From positions 1-64,000 of the forward strand of contig PMUI01000019.1 in assembly GCA_003166955.1 (NCBI GenBank): DNA of 64,000 nt, written 5' to 3'. Position 1 is the stretch's first letter. Every line of letters starts with the position of its first letter. This DNA comes from Acidobacterium sp. (GTDB lineage: Bacteria > Acidobacteriota > Terriglobia > Terriglobales > Acidobacteriaceae). The position numbers and the translations under genes are program-made. Below, piece after piece: positions 22,075 through 37,412 of this stretch. The notes below the pieces were generated by a model, which ran no database searches, was not told the origin of the DNA, and was given only the letters and a program-made list of their open reading frames with translations.

Positions 22075-25000
22075 TCAGAAGACAAACTTTCCGGCCAGTT
22101 CCAGAGTGCGCGGACCGTAGTCGCTGGTGACGGCGCCGAAGTTGCCGTCGTGGCTGCCGGCGTCGATGCCCTGGAAGATGGTGTGGTTGAAAGTGTTGAA
22201 GGATTCGAAGCGCAGCTCGACCCTGGTGCCATGCTCGTTGAGCGGGATTGCCTTGAAGAGCGAGAGGTTCCAGTTGAAGATACCCGGTCCGAGAGCCGAG
22301 TCCTTGCCGGCTGTACCGAAGCCCTGGTTAGTGCCGCCTGCCCACGGAGCCAGAGGATCGGCGTAGGAAGCCTTCGAGAACCAAGCCGCTGTCGTCTTCG
22401 GATAAGTGACCTTGGAAACCAGGTTCGGCCGGTCGGTTCCGCCGGCCAAGCCAAGCACGTTTGGTCCGGTATAGGTGACGAAAAGAGGCACACCGGCTTC
22501 TGCGACCGTGATGCCGGAGATGGTCCAGCCACCGATGGTGTCACGCTCCAGCATGCTGCCGTGGGCACCGAAGGGCAGGTTATAGACGTAACTGGCGTTG
22601 AAGATATGACGGCGGTCGAATCCGGTATCGGATCCGCGGTCATATCTGGGGTTGAATGGGTCGGACAATCCATTTAAGTCGTTCTGGACGATTGAAATGT
22701 TATGCGACCAGGTATAGGCCAGCTGACTGGTGAGGCCGTGCTTGTTCTCGAAGCGGATGCCGGCCTGCAGCGAGTTGTAGTTGAAGTTGGTCTCGTTTTC
22801 TTCCTGGGTAATTGTGGAGAAGCCAGGATAGATGCGATACAGGTTGGCGTTCAGCGTCCCGTTAGCGACGCCTTCGCGGAGGTCGTAAGGATTCGCGGAG
22901 TTAGCCGGATCGGTGAGCGGGAGAGTGTTGACGTTGCGATCGTCGTCCTGGCTCCAGCCGTCGGAGCCGACGTACTGGACCTGGAGGACGACGGAAGGCG
23001 CCAGCTCTTGCTGAATGCCAAAGCTGTAGTCCTCCGTACCCGGGCTGGGGAAGTGGTAGTTGATGTTGGTGAGCACAGACGGGAAGGCCTGAGTTGTGGT
23101 GGCTCCCGTAAGCGCGCTGGTGTGGGGGTTAGAGAAGTAGACGTTGGTCGCGGATGGCTGATAGGCGAACGGCGGATTGAGGGCTGCGTTGTAAACATCG
23201 TTGCCCTGGACGCGTTCAAAGAACATACCGAAGCCGCCGCGGAGAACGGTCTTGCCGTTGCCGAAGAGGTTATAGGCGAAGCCGATGCGCGGCTCCCAGG
23301 TGTTGTAGTCATTCTGCACGTTGCCGCGCGGGAATCCGTTCACCCCCGCCTCGCGGATTCCGTTGAGATAAAACGCCTGGCTGCCGGTTTTGCTGAAGGT
23401 GGAAAGATCGGCAGGGTTCAGGGTTCCGTCCGGATTGAGCGGATAGGCTGCAGAACGGGAATAGTCCGCGGCGACGAAGTTGGAGAACAGGTCATAACGT
23501 TCGAAGGCGTGGGGCATGCCGTCGTAGCGGAGACCGAGGTTCAGGGTCAGCCGTGGACTGACATGCCAGTTATCGTTGCCGTAGAAGCCATAGTTGTTGT
23601 TGACCCAGTGCTTGCCGGCCAGATACTGCAGTTGCGTGAAGCTGGAAGCATCTCCCAGCAGGAAGTTGATGTACGAGTCATGCGAGAACGCGCTGTTGCT
23701 GAAAGCTGCGGTTCCCTGGGTGTTGGCCTGCAGCTGCTGATTTTTGTAGTCGTGCAGAAGGCTGAAGCCAAATTTGAACTGGTGGCGGCCTTTGGTCCAC
23801 GAAAGGTCGTCGCGGTACTCAAAGCCCTCGTAGCCGTTTTTCCAGGGATAGTAGGATTCGCTCCAATTGGTGTTGAGCGGCGAACCCTGCAGATCGATTT
23901 CCGGCAGGTCGTCGCCGACGTTGTCGGAAACAGGGAAGAAACTGGAGGCGCCCCAGCCGCTGGGCAACTTGTAACTGCCACCTGAGCCAGCCTGGGGTGT
24001 GAGGGTGATTTTGTTGCCGCTGTACAAGATGGCAGTTTCATTGAGCAGCGTAGGAGTGTAGGTCTGGGTGAGCTTGATAACTGCCGTGTACGACGGATTG
24101 GTCATCGCTGTACCGACTGTGGGGTAGGTGCTGTCGCCCCACAGTGGGGGATAGAAGGACTTGTTCATGGCATCGTGCAGATAGTGACCCATGAGCTGGA
24201 ATTTCGAGTTAATCGTGTGGTCGATACGGACCGCTTCTTCACGGATGTAGTCGGTGGTGGGGACCGATGAGATGAACTGCGTCGTGCCCAGGTTGGGCTT
24301 TGGGAAAGTACCCGCATTCACTTCGAGGACAGCATTGGGGTCAATGAGGTTCGCTGGGATTACGTTGCCGGGGAACGGGCTGCCGGGGGTCAGGCCATCC
24401 TGCGTGTAGAGAGCCAGTTTCGCCGGATCGGTGGTCGCGGGAACGATGGGCGCAGCCGTGTTGTTGAACGGAGTGTAGGTGAGCGATGCGCCAGCGGTGG
24501 GGAAATTGCTGGCGGGAATGGTGTTGACGACGGAGGGGCTGCTGCCCTGGATGAGGCGCCGCCACTCTTCGTTCCAGAAGAAGAAGGTGCGGTTGCGGGT
24601 GTTGTTATAAACGCCCGGGATAAAGAGCGGACCGCCGATGTTGCCGCCGGGCTCGTTGAGCTGGAAGGTGGGCCGCGGTTTGCCGCTGCGCTTCACGAAA
24701 TAATCATTGGCGTTGTAGTCGGTGTTGCGGTTGAACTCGTACAGTTCGCCGTGGAAGTCGTGCGTGCCCGACTTCAGCACGAGTAGAATCGTGCCGCCCG
24801 AGCCTATGCCATAGTCGGGCTGGTAGTTGCTGTCGAGGGTCTGGAACTCTGCGATGGACTCCTGTGAGGGCAGGTTCATGAAGCAGCCGCCGCAGCCGCG
24901 GTCATTCTGCTCCGCGCCGTCGAGGAGGTAGATGTTGTGGGTGGTGCGGGTTCCGTTGAAGCTGATGCCGTTGGCCGACGTGAGGGCGTCAACGCCGCTG

Positions 25001-25560
25001 AAGGAGGGCAGGTTGTTGGAGACGCCGAGGCCGAGGGCGGCGAGCGCCGTGACGTTGTTGCCGTTGGTGGAGAGCTCCTCGACCTGCTGACCGCTGATGA
25101 GTGTGCTGACCTCGCTGGTTTCGGTCTGGGTCTGAAGGGCCTCAGCCTGCACCGAAACGGTCTGTGTAGCGCTGCCGACTTTGAACTGGATGTCCTCCTG
25201 CAGGGTCTGCGCCACGTTCACGACGATGCCCGTCTTGGTGTACTTCGAGAATCCGGAGGCGGTGGCATCAAGGTTGTAGGTGCCGATACCGACGTTACCG
25301 AAGCGGTAGGCACCGACGGAGTTGGAGACTTCGTTTCTGATCTGGCCGGTGGCGGTATTGGTGAGGGTGAGCTGAGCGTTGGCGACGACGGCTCCCGAGG
25401 CGTCGGTAACGGTGCCGTTAATGGTGGCGTTCTCCTGGGCGCGCAGAACGGGAGCGAAGAGAAGGGCTAGGGCTGCGAGGCAGCCGGCGAGGCGGATAGA
25501 GCGGATGCTATGCGTATGGCGGGCGTTGAAGCCCCGGGAAAGAAGCGAGGTGCAAATCAT
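22075..25560 (-). CDS. Oar-like TonB-dependent receptor with carboxypeptidase-regulatory-like domain
   Basis: A 1161-residue outer-membrane receptor starting at an ATG with GGGAGG. A long N-region with signal sequence (LAGCLAALALLFAPVLRA) is followed by the Ig-like domain (INGTVTDASGAVVANAQLTL), a plug and a large barrel ending in LELAGKFVF. A GHYLHD-type strand pattern and several aromatic-rich loops are typical of the family. A promoter lies at 25660-25689 and a CRE-like box at 25575-25584. Given the box shared with the arabinan genes, it may import arabino-oligosaccharides; this is inference. Confidence 0.9.
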   Translation of the reverse strand: MICTSLLSRGFNARHTHSIRSIRLAGCLAALALLFAPVLRAQENATINGTVTDASGAVVANAQLTLTNTATGQIRNEVSNSVGAYRFGNVGIGTYNLDATASGFSKYTKTGIVVNVAQTLQEDIQFKVGSATQTVSVQAEALQTQTETSEVSTLISGQQVEELSTNGNNVTALAALGLGVSNNLPSFSGVDALTSANGISFNGTRTTHNIYLLDGAEQNDRGCGGCFMNLPSQESIAEFQTLDSNYQPDYGIGSGGTILLVLKSGTHDFHGELYEFNRNTDYNANDYFVKRSGKPRPTFQLNEPGGNIGGPLFIPGVYNNTRNRTFFFWNEEWRRLIQGSSPSVVNTIPASNFPTAGASLTYTPFNNTAAPIVPATTDPAKLALYTQDGLTPGSPFPGNVIPANLIDPNAVLEVNAGTFPKPNLGTTQFISSVPTTDYIREEAVRIDHTINSKFQLMGHYLHDAMNKSFYPPLWGDSTYPTVGTAMTNPSYTAVIKLTQTYTPTLLNETAILYSGNKITLTPQAGSGGSYKLPSGWGASSFFPVSDNVGDDLPEIDLQGSPLNTNWSESYYPWKNGYEGFEYRDDLSWTKGRHQFKFGFSLLHDYKNQQLQANTQGTAAFSNSAFSHDSYINFLLGDASSFTQLQYLAGKHWVNNNYGFYGNDNWHVSPRLTLNLGLRYDGMPHAFERYDLFSNFVAADYSRSAAYPLNPDGTLNPADLSTFSKTGSQAFYLNGIREAGVNGFPRGNVQNDYNTWEPRIGFAYNLFGNGKTVLRGGFGMFFERVQGNDVYNAALNPPFAYQPSATNVYFSNPHTSALTGATTTQAFPSVLTNINYHFPSPGTEDYSFGIQQELAPSVVLQVQYVGSDGWSQDDDRNVNTLPLTDPANSANPYDLREGVANGTLNANLYRIYPGFSTITQEENETNFNYNSLQAGIRFENKHGLTSQLAYTWSHNISIVQNDLNGLSDPFNPRYDRGSDTGFDRRHIFNASYVYNLPFGAHGSMLERDTIGGWTISGITVAEAGVPLFVTYTGPNVLGLAGGTDRPNLVSKVTYPKTTAAWFSKASYADPLAPWAGGTNQGFGTAGKDSALGPGIFNWNLSLFKAIPLNEHGTRVELRFESFNTFNHTIFQGIDAGSHDGNFGAVTSDYGPRTLELAGKFVF

Positions 25561-25574
25561 AATGCCTCCCGAGC

Positions 25575-25584
25575 AAACGTTTTC
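25575..25584. promoter_or_regulatory. LacI-type box upstream of the second TonB receptor
   Basis: AAACGTTTTC contains the palindrome AAACGTTT typical of LacI/GalR-family operators. The same decamer occurs at 27640-27649 and, with one change, at 29530-29539. A related GAAACCGTTTTCC lies at 25723-25735. Confidence 0.5.
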
Positions 25585-25659
25585 TCTGTGAAGCGAATCT
25601 GATCTTCCGCCCGAGTTCTTTTGGCAGGCGCAGCTAGGGTCATTTCTCGGGCGAGAAAA

Positions 25660-25689
25660 CAATTACTCTTCTTGAAAAGCCTTTGTCAA
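25660..25689 (-). promoter_or_regulatory. candidate sigma70-type promoter of the second TonB receptor gene
   Basis: Minus strand: perfect -35 TTGACA (25684-25689), 18-base spacer, TAATTG (25660-25665). The operator-like box at 25575-25584 lies downstream in the leader. Confidence 0.55.
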
Positions 25690-25812
25690 GAAGAAGAGTT
25701 GAGCCAGGTTGCGCCCATCTGTGAAACCGTTTTCCACAAAGCGGCGTCCTTTTCTCCGGGGTCGGACGTGGGCGAGGACTGTCCGCCCGGCGGAGATCAA
25801 CTCGGGACCGGA

Positions 25813-27597
25813 TCAGCGAGCGGGTGGCGCAGAGGCAACGACACCAGCCCCTTCTCGCACGCTGTAGAAGCGATCGGCTGGCAAATCTCTTAGGGTTTCG
25901 GTTTTGCCGTCGGGCCACAAAACGCTTGCCCGATCGATGCGGTCATGGTTCGCAAGGCCGAAGTGCAGGCGGAGATCGTTTTGCGAGAGGTAGCTGCCGC
26001 CGCTGAGGACTTCGCCCAGCTGGATCAAGTCGCCGGCCTGCACGCGGACTCTCGCGTTCAGCGCCAGGCGATTGCTCTTCACGCCCTCGAGCTGAAAGCT
26101 AATCCAGTGGTGGGGCGGGCCACCGTCGGGCCGCAGAATCATGGGTTGACCAGACAGATTCTCCACCACCGCCTCCAGCCGGCCGTCGTTGAAAAGGTCG
26201 CCGATTGCCATGCCGCGGCTCACCTGGGGAATCTGAATCGCTTCGCCTACGACTTTGCTGATATCGCGGAAGGTTCCATCGCGCCGATTGAGAAAGAGCA
26301 GCTTCGGTTGGCGATAGCTGGCCCGCTCCGGGATCTGGTCCACCTGCGGATAAACGTGTCCGTCGACCAGGAAGATATCCTGCCAGCCGTCATTCGAAAA
26401 ATCGACGAAGGCGTCGCCCCAGCCAACATAACCACTGGTGGCGCGCGCTATGCCGGAGGCAACCGCCGCGTCTGTGAAGTTCATGCCGCCGTCGTTGCGG
26501 TAGAGCGCAGCATATTCGTTGTCGAAATGCGAGATGAACAGGGACATCAGTCCGGTGTGGAGATAGTCGCCGAGCGCGATACCCATGTTCGCCTGCGCGG
26601 CTCCGTTCGCATTGAGCGCCACGCCCGAGGAGAAGCCGACGTCGGTGAACCGGCCGTTGCCATCGCCCTGATAGAGATAACTGGGCTGGCCGTCGTTGGC
26701 GACGAAAAGATCGAGCTTGCCGTCATTGTCGAAGTCCGACCAGATGGCGGTAAGGCCGTAACGATGATCGGGATCGCTCACGCCGGCCTTTTTCGAAACA
26801 TCCGTGAAGGTGCCGTCGTGATTGTTGTGGTAGAGATTGTCGGGCGAACCTTTCAGGCCGCGCGGGCCGCACTGGACCTCGATGCCCATGTATTTGCAGG
26901 TGTCGCGGGAGCCGAAGGCATCGAGGTGATTGAGATCGATGTCGACGTAATGCGAGACGAAGAGATCCGCCCAGCCGTCGTTGTCGTAGTCGCCGAAAGC
27001 TGCTCCGGTGGCCCACAATGTATCGTTGCCGAGCCCGGCGCGCTTCGTCACATCGGTGAACGTGCCGTCGCCATTGTTGCGGTAGAGCACCACGCCGGAA
27101 AGACAGGTCACGAGCAGGTCGGGCCAGCCGTCGTTGTTGTAGTCGCCGACCGAGACGCCGTTGGCCCAGCAGGGGAAGGCGACGCCGGCTTTTTCGGTGA
27201 CGTCGGTGAAGGTTCCGTCGTGGTTGTTGTGGAACAGAGCGCTGCGCGCTTTGATGCCGGCGCGCGTCATGGCAACGGTTTGGGCATTGGTGAAGTAAAT
27301 GTCGGGCCAGCCGTCGCGGTCGTAGTCGATGAGCGCAACGCCGCCGCTCATCGACTCCACGATGAACTTCTGCTCGGGGCTGGAGTGGTGATCGAACTGA
27401 ATACCGGTCGAGGCAGTGATGTCGACCAGCTTCGGATAGCCCGCAAGGCTGGGCGGAGTGTCCGCGGCGAAGGATGGCAGGCTTCGAGCCAGCCAGAGCA
27501 CGATCGATGTGAGGAGAAAGACAGCGGCGACGAAGCGCCAGAGGCGGCGGTTGTTGATCGAAAGCGGTGTGCGGGCCGTCGGTTCTGCGCCTTGCAT
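25813..27597 (-). CDS. CRTAC1-family exported protein with FG-GAP/VCBS repeats and ASPIC/UnbV domain
   Basis: A 594-residue protein with an N-terminal membrane anchor or signal (FVAAVFLLTSIVLWLARSL). Repeated calcium-binding-like motifs DYDRDGWPD, DYNNDGWPD, DYDNDGWAD, DFDNDGKLD and DFSNDGWQD mark a seven-bladed integrin-like propeller. The C-terminal ASPIC/UnbV region includes HWISFQLEGVKSNRLALNAR and ASVLWPDGKTETL. Such proteins accompany TPR proteins and TonB receptors in Acidobacteriota; the function is unknown, perhaps extracellular glycan binding. It diverges from the GH39-like gene, with two regulatory motifs between them. Confidence 0.88.
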   Translation of the reverse strand: MQGAEPTARTPLSINNRRLWRFVAAVFLLTSIVLWLARSLPSFAADTPPSLAGYPKLVDITASTGIQFDHHSSPEQKFIVESMSGGVALIDYDRDGWPDIYFTNAQTVAMTRAGIKARSALFHNNHDGTFTDVTEKAGVAFPCWANGVSVGDYNNDGWPDLLVTCLSGVVLYRNNGDGTFTDVTKRAGLGNDTLWATGAAFGDYDNDGWADLFVSHYVDIDLNHLDAFGSRDTCKYMGIEVQCGPRGLKGSPDNLYHNNHDGTFTDVSKKAGVSDPDHRYGLTAIWSDFDNDGKLDLFVANDGQPSYLYQGDGNGRFTDVGFSSGVALNANGAAQANMGIALGDYLHTGLMSLFISHFDNEYAALYRNDGGMNFTDAAVASGIARATSGYVGWGDAFVDFSNDGWQDIFLVDGHVYPQVDQIPERASYRQPKLLFLNRRDGTFRDISKVVGEAIQIPQVSRGMAIGDLFNDGRLEAVVENLSGQPMILRPDGGPPHHWISFQLEGVKSNRLALNARVRVQAGDLIQLGEVLSGGSYLSQNDLRLHFGLANHDRIDRASVLWPDGKTETLRDLPADRFYSVREGAGVVASAPPAR

Positions 27598-27610
27598 GCC
27601 TGGAAATCCA

Positions 27611-27628
27611 GAATTCGTTTACAGCATA
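27611..27628 (-). promoter_or_regulatory. promoter/operator element shared with the LacI-type regulator gene
   Basis: On the minus strand TATGCTGTAAACGAATTC lies just upstream of the CRTAC1 gene. The same 18 bases except one occur at 36189-36206, upstream of the LacI-type gene. TATGCT could act as a -10 box and TGTAAACG as an operator half-site. Confidence 0.6.
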
Positions 27629-27639
27629 GAGGAACCGAG

Positions 27640-27649
27640 AAACGTTTTC
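27640..27649. promoter_or_regulatory. LacI-type box in the CRTAC1/GH39 divergent region
   Basis: AAACGTTTTC, identical to the decamer upstream of the second TonB receptor, lies between the two divergent starts. Confidence 0.5.
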
Positions 27650-27655
27650 CTGGAG

Positions 27656-27684
27656 TTGACGCCCTTTGCCTGGCGCATTAGGTT
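27656..27684 (+). promoter_or_regulatory. candidate promoter of the GH39-like gene
   Basis: TTGACG (27656-27661), 17-base spacer, TAGGTT (27679-27684). The -35 is good and the -10 weak. The box at 27640-27649 abuts it. Confidence 0.35.
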
Positions 27685-27760
27685 GGGGTGTCGCTGATCG
27701 ACGATCAACGCCCATCGTCAAGGGCGGGACGGCACTTTTGGCCGACGTCGCGAGGAGAAG

Positions 27761-29455
27761 GTGAGAACGATCCGACTGATGAGCCGGCCGGCGGTTGCGG
27801 GATGGCTGCTGGTATTGTCTTCCGGATGCTTCGGCCAGGCGCCGGTTGAGGTGCGCGTGGATTTGGGGCGCAACCTGGGTGCGTTCACGCCGGTGTATCC
27901 CTGGTTTGGCTACGACGAGTCGAATTACACGACGACGAAGAACGGGCAGGCTCTGCTGCGCGAGTTGCATGATACGACGCCGGAGCCGGTTTATGTGCGC
28001 GCGCATTTTCTGCTGACCACAGGAAACGGCAAGCCCGAACTGAAGTGGAGCTCGAGCAACGTCTATAGCGAAGACGCAAACGGAAAACCGGTGTACGACT
28101 GGACAATCCTCGACGGCATGTTCGACGCGTGGACCCGAGCGGGGGTGCGGCCGATGGTGGAGCTGGGCTTTATGCCGAAGGCGCTCTCGATTCATCCGGA
28201 TCCTTATCACATTCCGTGGCCGACGCAGCCTGGCGAGGTCGAGGGATGGTCGTTTCCACCGAAGGATTACAGCAAGTGGGGCGATCTGATCCGTCAGGTC
28301 GCGGCCCACATGGCGACGCGCTACGGAATGGCCGAGGTTTCCAATTGGTACTGGGAGGTGTGGAACGAACCGGACATTTTCTACTGGCACGGAAGCGAGG
28401 ACGAGTACAACCGCCTGTATGACTACGCGGTCGCCGGGGTTCGGGCGGCGATTCCGACGGCGCGAGTGGGCGGGCCGGCAACGACGGGACCTTCACCGAA
28501 CAGCAAGAGCGCGGCGTTTCTGCAGCAATTTTTGCGGCACTGCGCCGAGGATCGCAGCGGCGCCACGGGCGGCCCTGTTCCACTGGACTTTATTTCGTTT
28601 CATGCGAAGGGCAGCCCGCATATGATGGACGGGCACGTGCAGATGGGGCTCGGCCGTGAACTGGAAAACGCGACGACGGGCTTCGGGATTGTGCGGGCGT
28701 CTTCGAAATTTCGAGGCTTGCCCATCATTTTGAGTGAGGCCGATCCGGAGGGATGCGGTGCCTGTTCGCCCGAGCAGCATCCGGAAGATGCTTATCGCAA
28801 CGGGACGGTTTATCCGGCGTACACCGCGGCGGCGATGAAAGCGCTGATGGATCTGGCCGAGGGTGAGCGCGTGCACCTGATCGGATTTTTGACGTGGGCG
28901 TTTGAGTTCGAGGATCAGCCGTGGTTTGCGGGGCGGCGCACGTTGGCGACGCACGGCACCGACAAGCCAGAAATGAACTTCTTCCGCATGGCGGGACTGC
29001 TGGGCGGCGATCGCGTGGAGGCGGTGAGCCGCGGCGCGATTGCGGCGGAGAGCATCGTGAAGCAAGGCGTGCGCGAGCGGCCGGAGGTGGACGCGATGGC
29101 GACTCGGCGCGGGAGCAGCGCTTCGCTGCTGCTCTGGAATTATCAGGACGACGCCGTGGCGGGACCCGATGTTCGAACGCACATCTCGATCCGGGGGATC
29201 CCGACTGCCGTGGGCCGCGTGTTGGTTGAGGAGTACGGCATCGACAACCAACACAGCAACGCCTTCGAGGTTTGGAAGCAGATGGGTTCGCCGCAGGAGC
29301 CGAGTGCGGAGCAAGATGCGCGACTGAAGGCCGCGGGGCAGCTGGAAACGATAGATTCGCCGCGCTGGATTCCGGTGAAAGATGGCGGCGTGGAGACGGA
29401 GATTGATTTGCCACGGGAGAGTATGGCCCTGCTTCGATTGAGCTGGGAAAAGTGA
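27761..29455 (+). CDS. exported GH39-like glycoside hydrolase
   Basis: A 564-residue clan GH-A-type hydrolase. An N-terminal signal peptide (GWLLVLSSGCFGQA) is followed by a TIM barrel. The acid/base Glu203 lies in YWEVWNEPD and the nucleophile Glu326 in IILSEADPEG, as in GH39 beta-xylosidases. A C-terminal beta domain with WNYQDD follows. The start is a GTG just after AGGAGAAG; an in-frame ATG at 27779 is possible. It heads the plus-strand run with GH51, GH43 and GH127, so it probably acts on arabinan or arabinoxylan side chains. The exact bond is unknown. Confidence 0.82.
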   Translation: MRTIRLMSRPAVAGWLLVLSSGCFGQAPVEVRVDLGRNLGAFTPVYPWFGYDESNYTTTKNGQALLRELHDTTPEPVYVRAHFLLTTGNGKPELKWSSSNVYSEDANGKPVYDWTILDGMFDAWTRAGVRPMVELGFMPKALSIHPDPYHIPWPTQPGEVEGWSFPPKDYSKWGDLIRQVAAHMATRYGMAEVSNWYWEVWNEPDIFYWHGSEDEYNRLYDYAVAGVRAAIPTARVGGPATTGPSPNSKSAAFLQQFLRHCAEDRSGATGGPVPLDFISFHAKGSPHMMDGHVQMGLGRELENATTGFGIVRASSKFRGLPIILSEADPEGCGACSPEQHPEDAYRNGTVYPAYTAAAMKALMDLAEGERVHLIGFLTWAFEFEDQPWFAGRRTLATHGTDKPEMNFFRMAGLLGGDRVEAVSRGAIAAESIVKQGVRERPEVDAMATRRGSSASLLLWNYQDDAVAGPDVRTHISIRGIPTAVGRVLVEEYGIDNQHSNAFEVWKQMGSPQEPSAEQDARLKAAGQLETIDSPRWIPVKDGGVETEIDLPRESMALLRLSWEK

Positions 29456-29529
29456 GGCTGCGCGGCAGAGTTTGCCAAAGCAGTGGCGGGGCCGGCGAGA
29501 AAAGTGACATAGGAAGCGGGGGTTGTGGT

Positions 29530-29539
29530 ATACGTTTTC
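29530..29539. promoter_or_regulatory. LacI-type box variant upstream of the GH51 gene
   Basis: ATACGTTTTC differs by one base from the decamer at 25575 and 27640, and the flank CTCGG also matches the reverse complement of the 27640 site. It lies 36 bases upstream of the GH51 start. Confidence 0.4.
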
Positions 29540-29574
29540 TCGGCGTTGCCGCCGTCCGCAGGAGAGGACCATCC

Positions 29575-31488
29575 ATGAGAACGAGGGGATTCGCAATTCC
29601 AACATTTTCGGCAGTGTGCCTTTTCTGCGCCGCTATGCTGGGCGCGCAGGCCTCAGGCCCCGCCGTCCTGACCATTCACGCGGACCGGACTGCCTCGAAG
29701 GTGAGCCCGACTTTATACGGCCTGATGACCGAGGAAATCAACCACTCCTACGACGGCGGACTTTATGCGGAACTCATTCGCAACAACACGTTTCGGGCGG
29801 ACTGGTCGGGGGTGAACGACTGGATTCTGGTCGAACGCGGAGACGCGAGCGCGAAAATCAGCGTTGATAAAACCAGCGGCCCCAGCCAGGCGCTGCCGTA
29901 CAGCCTGCATGTCGAAGTGAGCCAGGCAAGCGCGGCGAGCCCCGCAGGGGTGCTGAACGGCGGCTACTGGGGCATCCCGCTGCGAACCAACACGACGTAT
30001 CACGGTTCGTTCTATGCGAAGGAAGATTCGGCCGACGTGGGTGCTGTGACCGCAAGCCTGGTGGCCGATCAGAGCGGCAAAGTGGTGGCCAGCGCCGTGG
30101 TTTCGGGCATCGGCACCGAGTGGAAACAGTACACGTTCACGCTGAAGACCGGCGCAATAGCGGAGTCGATGGGGAACCATTTGGTGCTCACCGTCGCGCA
30201 TCCGGGCAGCCTGTGGTTGCAGCTCGTCTCGCTGTTTCCGCCGACGTATCGCGACCGCGCTAACGGGAATCGCATTGATCTGATGGAAAAGCTGGCGGCG
30301 ATGCATCCGCAGTTTCTGCGCTTCCCGGGCGGAAATTATCTCGAGGGCGATCATCTTGCGGACTGGTACGACTGGAAGAAGATGATTGGTCCGCGGGTGG
30401 ATCGGCCAGGGCATCCGAGCCCGTGGAACTACTGGTCGACGGACGGGCTGGGGCTGCTGGAGTTCTTCGAGTGGTGCGAAGACTTGCACATGCAGCCGGT
30501 GCTCGCGGTGTATGCGGGGTATTCCCTGCGGCACGAACATATCAATCCGGGCGGGGATCTTGAGCCTTACGTGCAGGCGGCACTTGATGAGATTGAATAC
30601 GCCACGGGCGGGAGCGATACGAAGTGGGGCGCGCAGCGCGCGGCCGACGGTCATCCGCAGCCGTTCCACATCACGTATGTGGAGATCGGCAATGAAGACT
30701 GGTTTGACACGTCGGGAAGCTACGACAAGCGGTACGCGCAGTTTTACAAGGCGATCAAGGCGAAGTATCCCGATCTGCAGCTGATTGCCACCGCACCCAT
30801 CAAAGGGATGACAGCGGATGTGCTCGACGAGCACTATTATCTGCGTGCGACGGATTTCTTCCACGACGCGACCCATTACGACAAGACCGACCGCAATGGG
30901 CCGAAGATTTTCGTGGGCGAATGGGCCACGCGCGAAGGCACGCCGGCGCCGAACATGGGCGCGGCCCTTGGCGATGCTGCCTGGATGACGGGGATGGAAC
31001 GCAACAGCGACATTATCGTGATGGCATCGTATGCGCCGCTGCTGGTGAACATCAGCCCGAACGCGATGCAGTGGGACACGGACCTGATCGGCTACGACGC
31101 GCTGCGGAGCTATGGCTCGCCCAGCTACTACGCGCAGGTGATGTTCGGCAGTTACATCGGCGACGCGACGCCCGTTTCTTCAGCGGACGGTGCGGGGCCG
31201 AGATTCTTCTACTCTGTGACCGAGGACTCCGCGAAGAAGCGGTTGTTTGTGAAGCTGGTGAATGCGTCGTCGGACGCGCAGGCCCTGGATATCAAGCTGC
31301 CTGGCGCGAAGCTCGCTCCGGAGGGAAAACTGATCAGCCTCAGCGGAAAGGATCCGGAGGCGACCAACACGATCGACCAACCGACGGCCGTCGCTCCCGT
31401 GGAGAGTGCATTACATGGCGTGGGCGAATCGTTCCATCACAGGATTCCGCCGTACACCATCGAGGTGGTCGAGATGGAGATGCGCTGA
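29575..31488 (+). CDS. exported alpha-L-arabinofuranosidase, GH51 family
   Basis: A 637-residue protein with a signal peptide (FSAVCLFCAAMLGAQA). After a barrel-leading stretch there is an inserted carbohydrate-binding-like beta domain (about 90-225). It is followed by the catalytic barrel with acid/base Glu374 in EIGNEDWF and nucleophile Glu449 in FVGEWATREG, and a C-terminal beta domain. GH51 enzymes release terminal arabinofuranose. The ATG at 29575 follows GGAGAGG; a longer frame upstream is rejected. It precedes the GH43 gene by about 50 bases. Confidence 0.92.
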   Translation: MRTRGFAIPTFSAVCLFCAAMLGAQASGPAVLTIHADRTASKVSPTLYGLMTEEINHSYDGGLYAELIRNNTFRADWSGVNDWILVERGDASAKISVDKTSGPSQALPYSLHVEVSQASAASPAGVLNGGYWGIPLRTNTTYHGSFYAKEDSADVGAVTASLVADQSGKVVASAVVSGIGTEWKQYTFTLKTGAIAESMGNHLVLTVAHPGSLWLQLVSLFPPTYRDRANGNRIDLMEKLAAMHPQFLRFPGGNYLEGDHLADWYDWKKMIGPRVDRPGHPSPWNYWSTDGLGLLEFFEWCEDLHMQPVLAVYAGYSLRHEHINPGGDLEPYVQAALDEIEYATGGSDTKWGAQRAADGHPQPFHITYVEIGNEDWFDTSGSYDKRYAQFYKAIKAKYPDLQLIATAPIKGMTADVLDEHYYLRATDFFHDATHYDKTDRNGPKIFVGEWATREGTPAPNMGAALGDAAWMTGMERNSDIIVMASYAPLLVNISPNAMQWDTDLIGYDALRSYGSPSYYAQVMFGSYIGDATPVSSADGAGPRFFYSVTEDSAKKRLFVKLVNASSDAQALDIKLPGAKLAPEGKLISLSGKDPEATNTIDQPTAVAPVESALHGVGESFHHRIPPYTIEVVEMEMR

Positions 31489-31541
31489 AGGCGGCCAGGA
31501 ACAGGACGAGGCAGGGATCGCCTCGTCCCTTGCGAGGCACC

Positions 31542-32582
31542 ATGAAATCCGGTACGTCATTCCTGCTGTTCCTGCTGTATGCGGTGGGCTTCGTGCACCT
31601 CGCAGGGGCTCAGGAAACTCAGGCATTCGATCTAACCGGAGACTTTTGGGGCACGCACGATCCGTCGGCGATCAGGGCGGGCGATACGTGGTATGTGTTT
31701 GCCACGGGCAAGGCGCGGGAGGGCGGGCAATTCCAGATTCGCTGCTCGGCGGGCCTGCATGCGTGGAAGCTGTGCGGGCATGTCTTCGATGAGATTCCGG
31801 AGTGGATCCGGAAGGACAGCCCTGGCACTCGCGATTTATGGGCGCCGGATATTTCGTTTGAGGACGGAGAATATCGGCTGTACTACGCGTATTCGTTGTT
31901 CGGGAAGAACACGTCGGGGATCGCGCTGGCGACGAACAGGACGCTGGATCGTAACAGTCACGATTACAAATGGGAGGACCGCGGCCTGGTTCTGCGCTCG
32001 ACCGCGTCGGACGACTTCAACGCGATCGATCCCAACTTCGTCCTCGATGCGGATCATCATGCGTGGCTGGCTTTCGGCAGCTTCTGGAGCGGCATCAAGA
32101 TGCGCCGTCTCGACGATCGGACCGGAATGGTTTCATCGACTGATCAAAAGACCTACGCGCTGGCGACGCGCACCCGGCCGGACACTGCCCCTGGCGGCAC
32201 ACCGGATTTGCCGCCGGACTGGGAAGCCATCGAAGCGCCGTTTATTGTTCGCCACGGCGGGTACTACTATTCGTTTGTCTCGTGGGATCTCTGTTGCCGG
32301 GGCACGAAGAGCAATTACCGGACGATGGTCGGGCGCTCGAAGCAGATCACCGGCCCTTACGTTGACGATCACGGTGTTGCGATGATGCAGGGCGGCGGCA
32401 CACCGCTGCTGAGCGGCAACGCGCGCTGGCTGGGGCCGGGAGGAGAGTCGGTGGTGATGCAATCGCGAGGGCCGGACATTCTGGTCTTCCACGCCTACGA
32501 CGCGCAAACGGGCAGGCCGGCGCTGCAGATCTCCACGATCGCGTGGCACCATGGATGGCCGCACGTGGCGCTGCAACAGTAG
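31542..32582 (+). CDS. exported GH43 arabinanase-like protein
   Basis: A 346-residue five-bladed propeller protein with a signal peptide (FLLFLLYAVGFVHLAGA). The general base Asp lies in GTHDPSAI, the pKa-modulating Asp in FNAIDPNFV, and the acid Glu in WEAIEAPFIV. This set is typical of GH43 endo-1,5-alpha-L-arabinanases. It lacks the C-terminal extra domain of larger arabinanases. Endo-cleavage of the arabinan backbone would supply the GH51 and GH127 enzymes. Confidence 0.9.
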   Translation: MKSGTSFLLFLLYAVGFVHLAGAQETQAFDLTGDFWGTHDPSAIRAGDTWYVFATGKAREGGQFQIRCSAGLHAWKLCGHVFDEIPEWIRKDSPGTRDLWAPDISFEDGEYRLYYAYSLFGKNTSGIALATNRTLDRNSHDYKWEDRGLVLRSTASDDFNAIDPNFVLDADHHAWLAFGSFWSGIKMRRLDDRTGMVSSTDQKTYALATRTRPDTAPGGTPDLPPDWEAIEAPFIVRHGGYYYSFVSWDLCCRGTKSNYRTMVGRSKQITGPYVDDHGVAMMQGGGTPLLSGNARWLGPGGESVVMQSRGPDILVFHAYDAQTGRPALQISTIAWHHGWPHVALQQ

Positions 32583-32617
32583 CAAAGCCGCGGCCGCAAC
32601 CGAAGGAGGGATCAGGG

Positions 32618-34459
32618 ATGCATCGAATATCTCGACGCAGGTTTCTTGTGAGTTCGGTGGCAGCCGCAGGGGCTGCGCGCCTCCGCCGTCGCGCTTTCTC
32701 GGCTGAACTTCCGGCGCTGGCCGGCAGCACGCGCCTTGAGCAGTTTGACTATGCCGATGTCCGTCTGCTGGATGGGCCGATGCTGGAGCAGTTTCGCGCG
32801 AATCACGCTTACTTTCTCACTCTCAATGAGGACTCGCTGCTGCAGCCCTTTCGCCAGAAGGCCGGACTGCCTGCGCCAGGCGAGGCGATGGGCGGGTGGT
32901 ACAGCTGGTCGAAGGACTTTGATCCTCCGAAGAACATGACCGGGTATGTGCCGGGCCACACGTTTGGACAATATATGTCAGGGCTGGCCCGCGCATATGC
33001 GGCAACGGGAGACGACGCGACGCGTCAGAAGGTCTTCCGCCTGGTTCGCGGCTATGCTGAGACCATCACGCCGAAGTTTTATGACGGCTACCCGCTCCCG
33101 GCTTATACCTCGGACAAGACTGCGTGCGGCCTGATCGACGCGCACCGCTTCGCGCACGATTCACAGGCGCTGGCTGTGTTATCGAAGGCCACGGATGCGG
33201 TACTGCCCTGGCTGCCTCCAAAGGCGCTCAACCGTGAGGAGATGGCGGCGCGGCCGCATCCCAACATGGCGTACACGTGGGACGAGAGCTATACGCTGCC
33301 GGAAAATTACTTTCTTGCGTACCAGATCAGCGGCGATCCGCGTTACCTTTCTCTGGCGAAGCGTTTTCTTGAAGACGACACTTATTTCGGTCCTTTGTCG
33401 GAAGGCCAGAACGTGCTGCCGGGCCAGCACGCTTACAGTCACGTGAACGCGCTGAGCTCCGCGTCGCAGGCATATCTGGTTCTGGGCAGCGAGAAGCATC
33501 TGCGCGCGGCGCGGAATGGCCTTGGTTTCGTCGTCGACACGCAATCGTTTGCCACGGGAGGATGGGGGCCGAACGAGACGTTTCGCGCTCCGGGCAGCGG
33601 CGAGATGGGCGCGAGCCTCACCGATACGCACGCGAGTTTCGAAACGCCGTGCGGCGCGTACGGCCACTTCAAGATCACGCGGTATCTGCTGCGCATCACG
33701 GGCGACAGCCGCTACGGCGACAGCATGGAGAAGGTTCTCTACAACACGATCCTCGGCGCCAGACCGATGCAGCCTGGTGGCATCACCTTTTATTACTCCG
33801 ACTACAACAATTCCGGACGCAAGATGTACTACGAGCAGGCGTGGCCGTGCTGCTCCGGCACTTTTCCGCAGGTGACGGCCGACTACGGCATCAGCTCGTA
33901 CTTCCACGCGCCCGGCGCTCTGTACGTGAACCTGTTCGTGCCGTCGCGGGTCTCGTGGCGGCAGAACGGGGGGCGCATCGCACTGGAGCAGCAGACGCAG
34001 TATCCTTATTCTCCCGACGTGACAATGCGCATTCACGCGGAGCGGCCCGAGACATTCGCCGTGCATCTGCGCGTGCCGGCGTGGGCGGGACCAGGAACGA
34101 AGATTGCGGTCAATGGACGTGCTTTCGATGCGGATTTGCGTCCGGGAACGTTTGTCGCGGTTCGCCGCGAGTGGAAAGACGGTGACCGGATCGAGTATCA
34201 CATCGACATGCCGCTGCGCCTCGAGGCGGTTGATCCGCAACATGCACAAACGCGGGCGCTGCTTGCCGGGCCTGTTGCGCTGTTCGCGGTGGATTCTCCA
34301 GAGGGCCATTTTACGAGCGCGCAGTTGATGGCCGCTCGGCAGAAAAGTGCGGGGTCCACCGACTGGCTGGCGGAATCTGCAACAGGGACGGTTACATTTA
34401 AGTCGTTTCCCGCGATTGGCGAAGAGAAGTATCGGCTGTATCACGACGTCGCGATCTAA
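32618..34459 (+). CDS. GH127-type beta-L-arabinofuranosidase (DUF1680)
   Basis: A 613-residue protein starting at an ATG preceded by AAGGAGGG. A Tat-type signal (SRRRFLVSSVAAAGAA) opens it. An (alpha/alpha)6 barrel follows with E342 and C345 (FETPCGAYGH) and the Cys pair C411-C412 (AWPCCSGT) that hold zinc and supply the Cys nucleophile in HypBA1. A C-terminal beta region ends the protein. It removes beta-L-arabinofuranose. It follows the GH43 gene directly and is likely in the same operon. Confidence 0.9.
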   Translation: MHRISRRRFLVSSVAAAGAARLRRRAFSAELPALAGSTRLEQFDYADVRLLDGPMLEQFRANHAYFLTLNEDSLLQPFRQKAGLPAPGEAMGGWYSWSKDFDPPKNMTGYVPGHTFGQYMSGLARAYAATGDDATRQKVFRLVRGYAETITPKFYDGYPLPAYTSDKTACGLIDAHRFAHDSQALAVLSKATDAVLPWLPPKALNREEMAARPHPNMAYTWDESYTLPENYFLAYQISGDPRYLSLAKRFLEDDTYFGPLSEGQNVLPGQHAYSHVNALSSASQAYLVLGSEKHLRAARNGLGFVVDTQSFATGGWGPNETFRAPGSGEMGASLTDTHASFETPCGAYGHFKITRYLLRITGDSRYGDSMEKVLYNTILGARPMQPGGITFYYSDYNNSGRKMYYEQAWPCCSGTFPQVTADYGISSYFHAPGALYVNLFVPSRVSWRQNGGRIALEQQTQYPYSPDVTMRIHAERPETFAVHLRVPAWAGPGTKIAVNGRAFDADLRPGTFVAVRREWKDGDRIEYHIDMPLRLEAVDPQHAQTRALLAGPVALFAVDSPEGHFTSAQLMAARQKSAGSTDWLAESATGTVTFKSFPAIGEEKYRLYHDVAI

Positions 34460-34477
34460 GAACTCCAGGCCGCGATG

Positions 34478-36064
34478 TTAGCCGGCATTGGCATTGACCT
34501 GGGCGGCGATTTTGCGGAGCTCGGGAAGGACGTCACCCAAGGCGACCGGAGCGGCGGAGCGCGTGCCCAGCGCAAAGTAGACCTTGCGATAGAGCGGGTA
34601 CAGCTTTTCGCACACGGCGGAGGCCTCGGGCCTGGGACGGAACTCGGCGAATTGCGGGCATAGCCTGGCCTGCGCGGCTTCGACGGTGGGAAATACGCCG
34701 GCGGCCAGCATAGCGAAGATGCCCGAGCCGAGGCTGGTGGGGATTTCCGCGGGTACCAGCACCGGCTTGCCGAGAACGTCGGCGTAGACCTGGTTCAGCA
34801 CCGGGTTGTTTTGCGGAACGCCGCCGGCGTTGATGACGCGGTCGACGGGCGTTCCATGTTCGGCCATCCGCTCGAGGATGATCCGTGTGTGGAAGGCGGT
34901 TCCTTCAATAGCAGCGAAGAGCTCGTCCTGCGCGGTGTGGAGCAGATTCCAGCCAAGGGTCACGCCGCCCAGCTCCGAATTCACGAGCACGGTGCGATCC
35001 CCATTATCCCAGGAAAGACGGAGCAGACCGGTTTGTCCGGCTCGATATTTCTCGAGGCCTTTGGACAGCTCGGCGACCTTCACGCCTGCGCGCTTCGCGA
35101 TGGCCTCGAAGATGTCGCCGGTCGCCGACAATCCTGCTTCAATGCCGGTGTATTGCGGGTGCACGCTTCCCGGCACCACGCCGCAGACTCCGGGAATGAG
35201 CTGCGTGTCTTTCGCCATGGCGATGATGCATGTCGACGTGCCGACCACGTTGACGACATCGCCCGCGCGGCAACCGGCCCCCAGCGCATCCCAGTGCGCG
35301 TCGAATGCCCCCACGGGGATGGGAATTCCTGCGCGCAGTCCGAGCTTCTCCGCCCACTCGGCAGCCAGGTGGCCGGCCAGATGATCGGAAGTGAGATACT
35401 CGCCGGCGAGCTTGTCGCGAATACCGTCGAGGAGGGGGTCGACTTTCGACAGAAATGACTGCGGCGGCAAACCGCCCCACTTCGGGTTCCACATCCACTT
35501 GTGGCCCATGGCGCAGATGCTGCGCTTCGCGTGGCGCGGATCGGTAATTCCGCAAAGCGTGGCAGCTACCATGTCGCAGTGTTCGAATGCAGAGGCAAGG
35601 CGCGGCCGCTGTTGCGGATTGTGGCGCAGCCAGTGCAACAGCTTGGCAAATCCCCACTCATGCGAGTAGACGCCGCCGCACCACTCGATGGCTTCGAGGT
35701 TCTCCCGGTGCGCCAGCGCAGTGATTTCCTGCGCTTCGGAGGTGGCGCGGTGATCGCACCAGAGATAGTACTCACCGAGCGGCTGCATCCGGTCGTCAAC
35801 GGGGACGACGCTGGAGCCGGTGGTGTCGAGACCAATGGCTGCGATCTGGTCGCCGCGGATTCCGGCAGTCTGGACGGCGGCGCGCGTGGCTTCAGCGAGG
35901 GCGCGCATGTGATCGACGTGAGACTGCGTCGCGTAATCAGGGTCCTCGCGTTTGCGGTGCAGAGGATAATGGGCGACGGCTGTTCCGAGGCGGCCGCGCG
36001 CGTTGTCTATGATGGAGACGCGCACGCTGAGGGTCCCGAAATCCACGCCTGCAACGATCGTCAT
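34478..36064 (-). CDS. araB: ribulokinase
   Basis: A 528-residue FGGY-family kinase. The N-terminal GVDFGTLSVRVSIIDNARG fits AraB, with DFGT contacting ATP. IGLDTTGSSVVPVD and YLWCDHRA bind substrate, and AFDAHWDALGAG, VVGTSTCI and NAGGVPQNNPVLNQVYADVL are the FGGY signatures. It phosphorylates L-ribulose after AraA; neither araA nor araD is in the window. It is convergent with the GH127 gene and divergent from the LacI-type gene. Confidence 0.93.
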   Translation of the reverse strand: MTIVAGVDFGTLSVRVSIIDNARGRLGTAVAHYPLHRKREDPDYATQSHVDHMRALAEATRAAVQTAGIRGDQIAAIGLDTTGSSVVPVDDRMQPLGEYYLWCDHRATSEAQEITALAHRENLEAIEWCGGVYSHEWGFAKLLHWLRHNPQQRPRLASAFEHCDMVAATLCGITDPRHAKRSICAMGHKWMWNPKWGGLPPQSFLSKVDPLLDGIRDKLAGEYLTSDHLAGHLAAEWAEKLGLRAGIPIPVGAFDAHWDALGAGCRAGDVVNVVGTSTCIIAMAKDTQLIPGVCGVVPGSVHPQYTGIEAGLSATGDIFEAIAKRAGVKVAELSKGLEKYRAGQTGLLRLSWDNGDRTVLVNSELGGVTLGWNLLHTAQDELFAAIEGTAFHTRIILERMAEHGTPVDRVINAGGVPQNNPVLNQVYADVLGKPVLVPAEIPTSLGSGIFAMLAAGVFPTVEAAQARLCPQFAEFRPRPEASAVCEKLYPLYRKVYFALGTRSAAPVALGDVLPELRKIAAQVNANAG

Positions 36065-36123
36065 GGTGTGTTCCTGGGTATTTGGGCGGCCTGGCCGAGT
36101 TCGAGGGTTTCGGTTCCTGGTTC

Positions 36124-36137
36124 AGTAAACATTTACT
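36124..36137. promoter_or_regulatory. inverted repeat in the araB/lacI-type divergent region
   Basis: AGTAAACATTTACT is a perfect inverted repeat of AGTAAA/TTTACT with two central bases, 60 bases upstream of araB. It fits a LacI-type operator. Confidence 0.55.
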
Positions 36138-36188
36138 CACCCTGCGAGGGGCGCTCTTAATTTTTGCCGCTGTCTTTTCACGTTATTG

Positions 36189-36206
36189 TATGCTGTAAAC
36201 GCATTC
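36189..36206 (+). promoter_or_regulatory. promoter/operator element upstream of the LacI-type gene
   Basis: TATGCTGTAAACGCATTC is nearly identical to the element upstream of the CRTAC1 gene (27611-27628, minus strand), differing at one of 18 positions. It lies 14 bases before the start codon, so it could be an autoregulatory site. Confidence 0.6.
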
Positions 36207-36219
36207 TTGGGACTCGCCT

Positions 36220-37326
36220 ATGCCAGGTCCGGCTCGAAAAGGCAGACGCCGTTCGTCGTCGAAGTCCGACCGTATGGATATTCACGCGGTCGCCAAACTG
36301 GCCCTCGTCTCCATCGCCACGGTATCACGCACCATCAATCACATCCCAACCGTCAATCCGAAAATGGCCAAGCGGGTGTGGGAGGCCATCCGCGAGCTGA
36401 ACTACTTTCCGAACACGCAGGCACGAGCCCTGGTCTCCGGGCGCAGCAAACTGCTCGGCCTGATCGTCTCGGAAATCACCAACCCATTCTTCCCGGAACT
36501 GATTCAGGGCTTCGAGGACGTTGCCGTGGAGAACGGATACGAGATTCTGATCGGATCCACAAACTACGAACCGGAACGGATGCAGCGCTGCATCCGGCGC
36601 ATGGTGGAACGCAACGCCGAGGGAGTCGCAGTGATGACTTTCGGCATCGAGCAGCCGCTGCTGGACCAGCTGGCAGAGCGCAAAGTGCCTCTGGTTTTCG
36701 TCGACGTGGCGCCGAACCAGCCGGGCATAAGCGTTCTGCGGGTCGACTATCACCACGGCATCCGCCAGGGAGTGCAACACCTGGCCGCGCTTGGGCATCG
36801 CAGCATCGCGTTCGTCACCGGGCCGTTGCGGCTGCACTCCGCACAGTCGCGGCTGGCGGCGTTCAAGAAAGCGCTGGAGGAATGCGGCATTCCTGTCCAG
36901 GAGAAGTACATCGTCGAGGGCGACCACACGATGGAAGGGGGCGTGGCCGCAGCCGAGCAGCTGATGGCTCTGAAGGAACTGCCCACTGCGATCATGTGCT
37001 CGAACGACATGCTGGCCATCGGCGTCCTGCACAAGCTGTCCCGATCCGGACTTCGCGTTCCGGACGACGTCTCGATCATCGGGTTCGATGACATTCACCT
37101 GGCGTCGATCATGATTCCGCCCCTGACATCCATTCAGATGTCCCGCGCCGACCTGGCTCTGGGCGCGGTCAGCGCACTGCGCGGACATATCGAAGGCTCC
37201 TCGCCGCAGCGCGAATACAAGATCGACACCCGCCTGGTTGTCCGGGAGTCCACCGGCTTTCCCCGAGGCACCATGGCTCATTTGCGCGGCCGCAGAGACA
37301 GAACTGCGCAGCCCACATCCAACTAG
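36220..37326 (+). CDS. LacI-family transcriptional regulator
   Basis: A 368-residue regulator. The HTH is MDIHAVAKLALVSIATVSRT, residues 19-38, with the hinge helix near 60-70 (PNTQARALVSGRS). The periplasmic-binding-like ligand domain follows, with ITNPFFPELIQG, AIMCSNDMLAIGVL and VSIIGFDDI. A basic leader of 18 residues precedes the HTH. It probably senses an arabinose-derived sugar and controls araB and the surrounding glycosidase genes; this rests on shared motifs and gene context. Confidence 0.92.
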   Translation: MPGPARKGRRRSSSKSDRMDIHAVAKLALVSIATVSRTINHIPTVNPKMAKRVWEAIRELNYFPNTQARALVSGRSKLLGLIVSEITNPFFPELIQGFEDVAVENGYEILIGSTNYEPERMQRCIRRMVERNAEGVAVMTFGIEQPLLDQLAERKVPLVFVDVAPNQPGISVLRVDYHHGIRQGVQHLAALGHRSIAFVTGPLRLHSAQSRLAAFKKALEECGIPVQEKYIVEGDHTMEGGVAAAEQLMALKELPTAIMCSNDMLAIGVLHKLSRSGLRVPDDVSIIGFDDIHLASIMIPPLTSIQMSRADLALGAVSALRGHIEGSSPQREYKIDTRLVVRESTGFPRGTMAHLRGRRDRTAQPTSN

Positions 37327-37412
37327 CGCCTGCGGAGGCAATGCGCAGGCCACCCGGCTGCCTGACGTTGCGCGATACACTTGGGCAACGGTTCCGCTCT
37401 TCTTCAGGGGAA

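Follow-up and report, generated by a model that had tools for sequence, protein, structure and literature searches.

A promoter-overlapping element before lacI and a CRTAC1-like gene in Acidobacterium sp., most likely an operator of the LacI-type regulator

The DNA analyzed here (the window) is a stretch of 64,000 nucleotides from Acidobacterium sp., contig PMUI01000019.1 of the assembly GCA_003166955.1. It encodes a LacI-family regulator (lacI) and a CRTAC1-like protein, and an 18-bp element stands before both genes. The element is most likely the site where the LacI repressor switches off lacI and CRTAC1. There is a good probability that the LacI-type regulator encoded at 36220-37326 uses it as an operator embedded in the promoter; this regulator would repress its own gene and CRTAC1 within a wider local regulon. 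We infer that the binding protein is this LacI rather than a paralogue, that it represses and does not activate, and that the inducer is of the arabinose type.

Position, rarity and conservation of the element

The two copies fit TATGCTGTAAACG[A/C]ATTC and are identical at 17 of 18 positions (Table 1). Their starts are 8578 bp apart, and the spacer between the element and ATG is exactly 13 bp at both genes (ATG at 27597 for CRTAC1 and at 36220 for LacI). A first, sequence-only reading had described a near-identical pair with one mismatch, 8.6 kb apart and in the same orientation relative to the genes, and the pair was located as it stated.

With up to three mismatches, the window contains two matches, against a mean of 0.04 in shuffled sequences; none of 100 shuffles had two. 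The genome of the window (5,409,550 bases in 142 contigs) was scanned at the same threshold with the reversed pattern as a control. Six matches were observed: the window pair without mismatches, one match with two mismatches and three with three. The control gave two. The sequence-only reading had called for a genome-wide search, with a motif common across the genome counting against the idea. The motif is rare, and the objection does not apply because no copies besides the window pair have fewer than two mismatches in this 5.4-Mb genome.

For the wider scan, 300 family genomes were taken from a larger group and searched with the relaxed pattern TATNCTGWAAACGCATTC, allowing at most one mismatch. 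It yielded 24 matches in 17 genomes (one in the reversed control), of which 11 are before LacI, 6 before CRTAC1 orthologues and 7 elsewhere. The 12 exact matches are at LacI orthologues (10) and CRTAC1 orthologues (2), while the 12 one-mismatch matches include five at LacI or CRTAC1, one before araD and six elsewhere. Among the 12 genomes of the genus, six have the element at both lacI and CRTAC1, and six show no match at all. A scan of 60 relatives also revealed, among the matches listed, several genomes of the genus with the element at both genes. Beyond the genus, three exact matches are all at LacI, and eight one-mismatch matches are at LacI (one), araD (one) and elsewhere (six). Alignment showed that the element is kept while the flanking intergenic DNA diverges.

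Two observations from single genomes are added here. In G224, from another genus, a one-mismatch copy (L195:8896-8913) lies 39 bp before araD, whose product scores above the cut-off of NF006047; this copy would fit an arabinose regulator. In G002 (contigs C66 and C352), two LacI copies both have the element upstream, one of them cut by a contig end and the other split in two frames.

Seventeen regions upstream of CRTAC1 were compared, and the orthologues of G005 and G011 were read separately. The motif is present with one mismatch to the consensus in four of them (G000, which is the genome of the window, G010, G002 and G006). The remaining 13, which include a paralogue from G005, lack it, with 5-9 mismatches, about the range of the control.

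LacI loci were fetched in 75 cases and 36 were examined for the motif; several of the 36 are the same contigs as those of the genomes above (e.g., L097/G006, L099/G011, L102/G003 and L105/G115). The element, with at most three mismatches and near the start, was found at 16 of 22 loci whose LacI is at least 69% identical and at none of 14 loci at 64% identity or less. A site before the own gene that is kept in orthologues, the mark of self-regulation, is thus seen at these 16 of the 22 close loci. In a tree of 35 LacI proteins, built without L167 and L171 (two pieces of one genome), all 15 motif-bearing proteins fall in one clade of 21 with support of 100/99. When 16 genomes with such LacI genes (at least two of them previously scanned) were searched with a still looser pattern, 22 matches were obtained against four in the control. 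Seven are exact, all at lacI by position; of the 15 with one mismatch, two are at lacI and 13 are unclassified. Because the exact matches beyond the genus are at lacI only, within one LacI clade, the element would most simply be an old self-control site of that clade that has been lost several times; its use at CRTAC1 would most simply be a later gain in the genus of the window. Phylogenetic footprinting, at both sets of orthologues and in one LacI clade of the proteins compared, supports the earlier suggestion that the LacI-type regulator may control itself and CRTAC1.

Nature of the element and alternative explanations

In a table of 27 sites, A2, T3, T6, G7, A9, A10, G13, T16 and C18 are invariant. 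Position 4, within the putative -10 box, varies freely among G, C and T, and positions 8, 11, 14 and 17 vary. Positions 1, 5, 12 and 15 depart once each, and 19 and 20 are loose. This table includes near relatives, was partly collected by pattern and leaves out motif-less lacI promoters, such as that of G003/L102 with five mismatches. Its counts are descriptive only, because the sites share descent and were in part picked by pattern.

The catabolite-responsive element (cre) bound by CcpA, a LacI-family protein of Bacillota, has the consensus WTGNAANCGNWNNCWW according to an excerpt of PMC8359418. When cre is overlaid on the 27 sites, departures from its fixed letters amount to 1 of 189 cells and changes at its N positions to 9 of 135. 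In 26 of the 27 sites every fixed letter agrees, and the middle W and the central CG are likewise kept in 26. The element resembles a whole cre-like operator, more than a half-site. Of the earlier proposal, a -10 box combined with a TGTAAACG half-site, the combination is supported by the footprinting, while the half-site may be widened to a whole operator resembling cre.

The regulator itself also shows likeness to CcpA. CcpA proteins are the best solved-structure matches of the window LacI, and the recognition helices (VSIATVSR versus VSMATVSR) are one residue apart. However, the ccpA equivalog of NCBIfam (TIGR01481) gives 201.4 bits, below its cut-off of 442.35, and the element, with its two copies in this genome, is rare, unlike what a global regulator such as CcpA would have.

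The excerpted part of Ravcheev et al. 2014 (PMC4052901) reports that 72% of the studied LacI-type factors are autoregulated and that their sites are mostly even palindromes with central CG. The local sugar regulons in that excerpt resemble the present locus in having a site before the regulator's own gene, a regulator adjoining likely sugar targets, and several related sites, some with central CG. They differ in that the lacI and CRTAC1 sites here show less symmetry, coincide in part with a -10-like box and are found close to ATG, and in that the araB-lacI site has CA or CC at its center. The word Acidobacteria does not occur in the main text of PMC4052901. Excerpts of PMC5928203 and PMC6882875 describe LacI-type regulators in bifidobacteria. 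AraR of Bacteroides, in an excerpt of PMC4666351, is similar in controlling the use of L-arabinose, but it belongs to a different protein family, NrtR.

TATNCT is conserved across the collected sites. TGTCAA is seen by eye 17-19 bp upstream of the box at lacI in several relatives, and it is absent from the window. An automatic sigma-70 scan finds nothing at either window promoter, so that the role of TATNCT as a -10 box is putative. The constant orientation of a site expected to work both ways would be due to the -10 box within it.

An operator that overlaps a box of this kind and spans about -8 to +8 is a classic placement for a repressor. In the proposed mechanism, TATNCT would serve as the -10 box. 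CTGTAAACGCATTCTT, which overlaps it, would be a cre-like LacI-family operator spanning roughly -8 to +8 of the transcript. A LacI dimer free of inducer would bind the element and keep RNA polymerase from its own promoter (negative autoregulation) and from the CRTAC1 promoter. The same LacI would probably also bind the related sites before araB, the receptor gene (three sites) and the GH51 gene (glycoside hydrolase, GH), and an arabinose-derived sugar would release it from all sites together.

Several observations weigh against this operator reading. With respect to cre, 26 of the 27 sites have C and not A/T at position 1, and its final two W positions are loose, with fits in 20 and 15 of 27. 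The sampling of the 27 sites, with near relatives and partly by pattern, favors low variation. Judged by eye, only three of six positions pair between the two halves of the element; the symmetric site 70 bp upstream is different, and the neighboring sites have more symmetry. The sigma-70 scan (-35 and -10 hexamers 16-18 bp apart) calls no promoter at either place, and no -35 is seen by eye at CRTAC1. Six of the 21 LacI proteins in the clade are without the element, and the label needs six changes on the tree (mean of 11.6 when shuffled). Six one-mismatch matches of the family scan fit neither LacI, CRTAC1 nor araD. One of them is inside a frame which we take to be pyruvate kinase-like, one is 17 bp before a presumably purQ-like start, and four are without assigned gene context. 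The LacI homologue of G224 (60% identical) has another upstream site, not the 18-mer. The six motif-less genomes of the genus have LacI homologues of only 61-77% identity; because these are more distant, the absence of the element at CRTAC1 there is weak evidence and not independent proof.

The element could also be a LacI-type operator bound by a LacI paralogue or another regulator, with the neighboring LacI using only symmetric sites like GTAAACATTTAC. The genome has five LacI-type genes, and the asymmetric element is unlike the symmetric site of the same intergenic region; the two may be bound by different proteins. We give this possibility a small share of the probability. The element tracks the clade and the own promoter of this LacI, outside the genus it matches exactly nowhere but at this LacI, and the other four LacI loci of the genome show different sites, or no such sites, before LacI (two patterns).

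The conserved TATNCT and the shared orientation relative to lacI and CRTAC1 would also suit a specialised promoter for an alternative sigma factor, or an activator site, common to the two genes and without a repressor site. It is quite unlikely, since the conserved part is a single contiguous block, not two hexamers, and this block holds the GTAAAC core of the nearby LacI-type palindromes. The low number of copies, two or three in each of the six motif-bearing genomes of the genus, is a further point against it, and by the same count a general promoter motif was ruled out.

An element of leader RNA or of translation, acting in the transcript near the start codon, is suggested by the equal distance to both ATGs in the window. 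Before CRTAC1 in relatives, however, the distance is 11 to ~45 bp where the start could be placed, and the pattern of change in the 27 sites fits a DNA operator, which makes this explanation very improbable. Chance resemblance, or a recent functionless copy of the lacI promoter, would agree with two copies only in the genome, but it has almost no probability left given the shuffles, the occurrence at both genes in six genomes with differing variants (TATGCT at lacI and TATTCT at CRTAC1 in G010) and flanks that do not look duplicated; chance origin of the pair was ruled out by the shuffles, the rarity in the genome and the family-wide scan.

The locus and the related LacI-type sites

The gene order is the receptor gene (minus), the CRTAC1-like gene (minus), GH39, GH51, GH43 and GH127 (plus), araB (minus) and the divergent lacI (plus).

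Table 1. Elements, genes and LacI-type sites of the locus in the window
Feature	Position	Strand	Sequence	Basis or remark
18-bp element before the CRTAC1-like gene	27611..27628	minus	TATGCTGTAAACGAATTC	Pattern scan; six genomes of the genus, including that of the window, have it upstream of CRTAC1
18-bp element before lacI	36189..36206	plus	TATGCTGTAAACGCATTC	Pattern scan; conserved at lacI orthologues
-10-like box	36189-36194		TATGCT	Overlaps the cre-like operator
cre-like operator	36193-36208		CTGTAAACGCATTCTT	Overlapped by the -10-like box
LacI-family regulator, helix-turn-helix and periplasmic-binding-like sensor	36220..37326	plus		Pfam LacI and Peripla_BP_3 above cut-off
CRTAC1-like protein, FG-GAP repeats and ASPIC/UnbV domain	25813..27597	minus		Pfam; CRTAC1 name from the sequence-only reading
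Ribulokinase araB, divergent from lacI	34478..36064	minus		NCBIfam NF003154 above cut-off, TIGR01234 below
Outer-membrane beta-barrel receptor	22075..25560	minus		Pfam OMP_b-brl_4, CarboxypepD_reg
Alpha-L-arabinofuranosidase (GH51 type)	29575..31488	plus		Pfam ASD1_dom, Alpha-L-AF_C
Glycoside hydrolase family 39, divergent from CRTAC1	27761..29455	plus		Pfam
Glycoside hydrolase family 43, open reading frame	30921..32582	plus		Pfam
Beta-L-arabinofuranosidase GH127	32543..34459	plus		Pfam
Symmetric LacI-type operator, araB-lacI divergent region	36125..36136		GTAAACATTTAC	GTAAACCTTTAC or GTAAACATTTTC in relatives
Second LacI-type palindrome upstream of CRTAC1	27637..27650		GGAAAACGTTTCTC (on the minus strand)	Recurs in altered form in relatives
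LacI-type site just before the receptor ribosome-binding site	25573..25584		GCAAACGTTTTC	Identical in 5/5 aligned genomes (window included)
LacI-type site	25655..25666		GAAAACAATTAC	Identical in 5/5 aligned genomes (window included)
LacI-type site	25723..25734	minus	GAAAACGGTTTC	GTAAACGGTTTC in four aligned relatives
LacI-type site before GH51	29528..29539	plus	GTATACGTTTTC	In a ~20-bp identical block, 4/4 aligned genomes (window included)

LacI-family membership is supported by PF00356 (49.4 bits, cut-off of 27) and PF13377 (125.4 bits, cut-off of 26.5). The best-matching named LacI records are from Acidobacterium sp. and Acidobacteriaceae metagenome assemblies. The araB gene adjoins lacI, and the arabinofuranosidase genes lie between lacI and CRTAC1. 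Because the Pfam names include alpha- and beta-L-arabinofuranosidase, the locus most likely serves the use of arabinan or arabinose-containing glycans, as judged from these families.

The start of the receptor gene was moved from TTG 25662 of the first-pass open reading frame to the conserved ATG 25560, with GGAGGCATTATG kept in five aligned genomes. The start of GH51 was moved to the conserved ATG 29575 on the basis of the alignment, and both new starts are in frame. It is very likely that these two genes begin downstream of the starts of their longest frames. With the new starts, the sites at the receptor and GH51 genes therefore fall in leaders, outside coding sequence.

The gene directly 3' of lacI (37341-38981, 546 aa) shows a partial match to adenosine deaminase, above the Pfam and below the NCBIfam cut-offs. 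G010 has an extra gene with an L-fucose-isomerase C-terminal domain (Pfam) between araB and lacI (L201:4020-5432). A similar frame is found at the same place in G006 and a cut frame in G005. G006 also has a GH3 gene (Pfam) between CRTAC1 and GH39 (L198:8781-11444). The locus in the window contains neither a GH3 gene nor a gene of the L-fucose-isomerase type, and its araB-lacI gap (36064-36220) is too small for a gene. The arabinose isomerase AraA, searched as PF02610, was found in 2 of the 12 genomes of the genus but not in that of the window.

Several LacI-type sites are present in the locus, before the receptor gene, GH51 and araB, and on this basis the regulon probably extends beyond two genes. 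When one mismatch is allowed, GTAAACNNTTWC is found at seven distinct places of the window, all within 25573-36206: three at the receptor gene and one each at CRTAC1, at GH51, in the araB-lacI region and before lacI. Four relatives (G005, G006, G010 and G011) have counterparts of the receptor, araB-lacI and lacI sites. The GH51 site is likewise present in G006, G010 and G011, the three for which the GH51 region was covered.

The extent of the regulon is tempered by the statistics of these patterns. GTAAACNNTTWC was drawn from two of these sites after they had been seen, and its eight window matches on both strands, against a shuffle mean of 1.74, were reached by 1 of 100 shuffles. Matches to the sister patterns occur outside the locus or inside genes, at 33926, 43635, 45125, 57414, 60347 and other places for GTAAACNNNTTC and at 33541 for GNAANCGNTTNC. 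A few extra matches in the relatives above are not before these genes. Exact GTAAACNNTTWC is not enriched genome-wide (seven against eight in the control), so that only a local regulon is claimed; a global regulon was rejected, with GTAAACNNTTWC at background across the genome.

CRTAC1-like genes near LacI genes and the meaning of the proposed shared operator

In three genomes of the genus, 8 of 22 LacI genes are within 11 kb of ASPIC/CRTAC1 genes against 1.35 expected (P ~3e-5), where the distance was chosen from four after looking and contig ends were ignored. By genome, the counts are four of five in the genome of the window, two of five in G003 and two of 12 in G008. Four other neighborhoods of LacI and CRTAC1 in the genome of the window (C96, C123, C129 and C23) were compared with two patterns, and no shared LacI-CRTAC1 operator pair was seen. 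Only in C96 does a clear LacI-type site stand immediately before LacI.

Because LacI genes are found near ASPIC genes above expectation, a dedicated role of CRTAC1-like proteins is hinted. Tentatively, these proteins could be dedicated parts of LacI-controlled loci for glycan use in Acidobacteriota, partnering the receptor of the CarboxypepD_reg type in the outer membrane in a SusD-like manner, and in this genus one of them could be wired to the feedback operator of the regulator. If this is true, the CRTAC1-like protein would be made in step with the sensor in the genus of the window.

The titles and abstract openings returned by a literature search describe no such LacI-type regulon in Acidobacteriota, and a role of the CRTAC1-like family in these bacteria did not turn up among them. 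The mechanism itself is ordinary bacterial repressor biology. For a LacI-type regulator of Acidobacteriota, which are abundant soil bacteria, the analysis yields a candidate operator sequence together with a small predicted regulon. The sharing of the promoter element would link the poorly understood CRTAC1-like family to the use of arabinan, a testable clue and a useful lead on this family.

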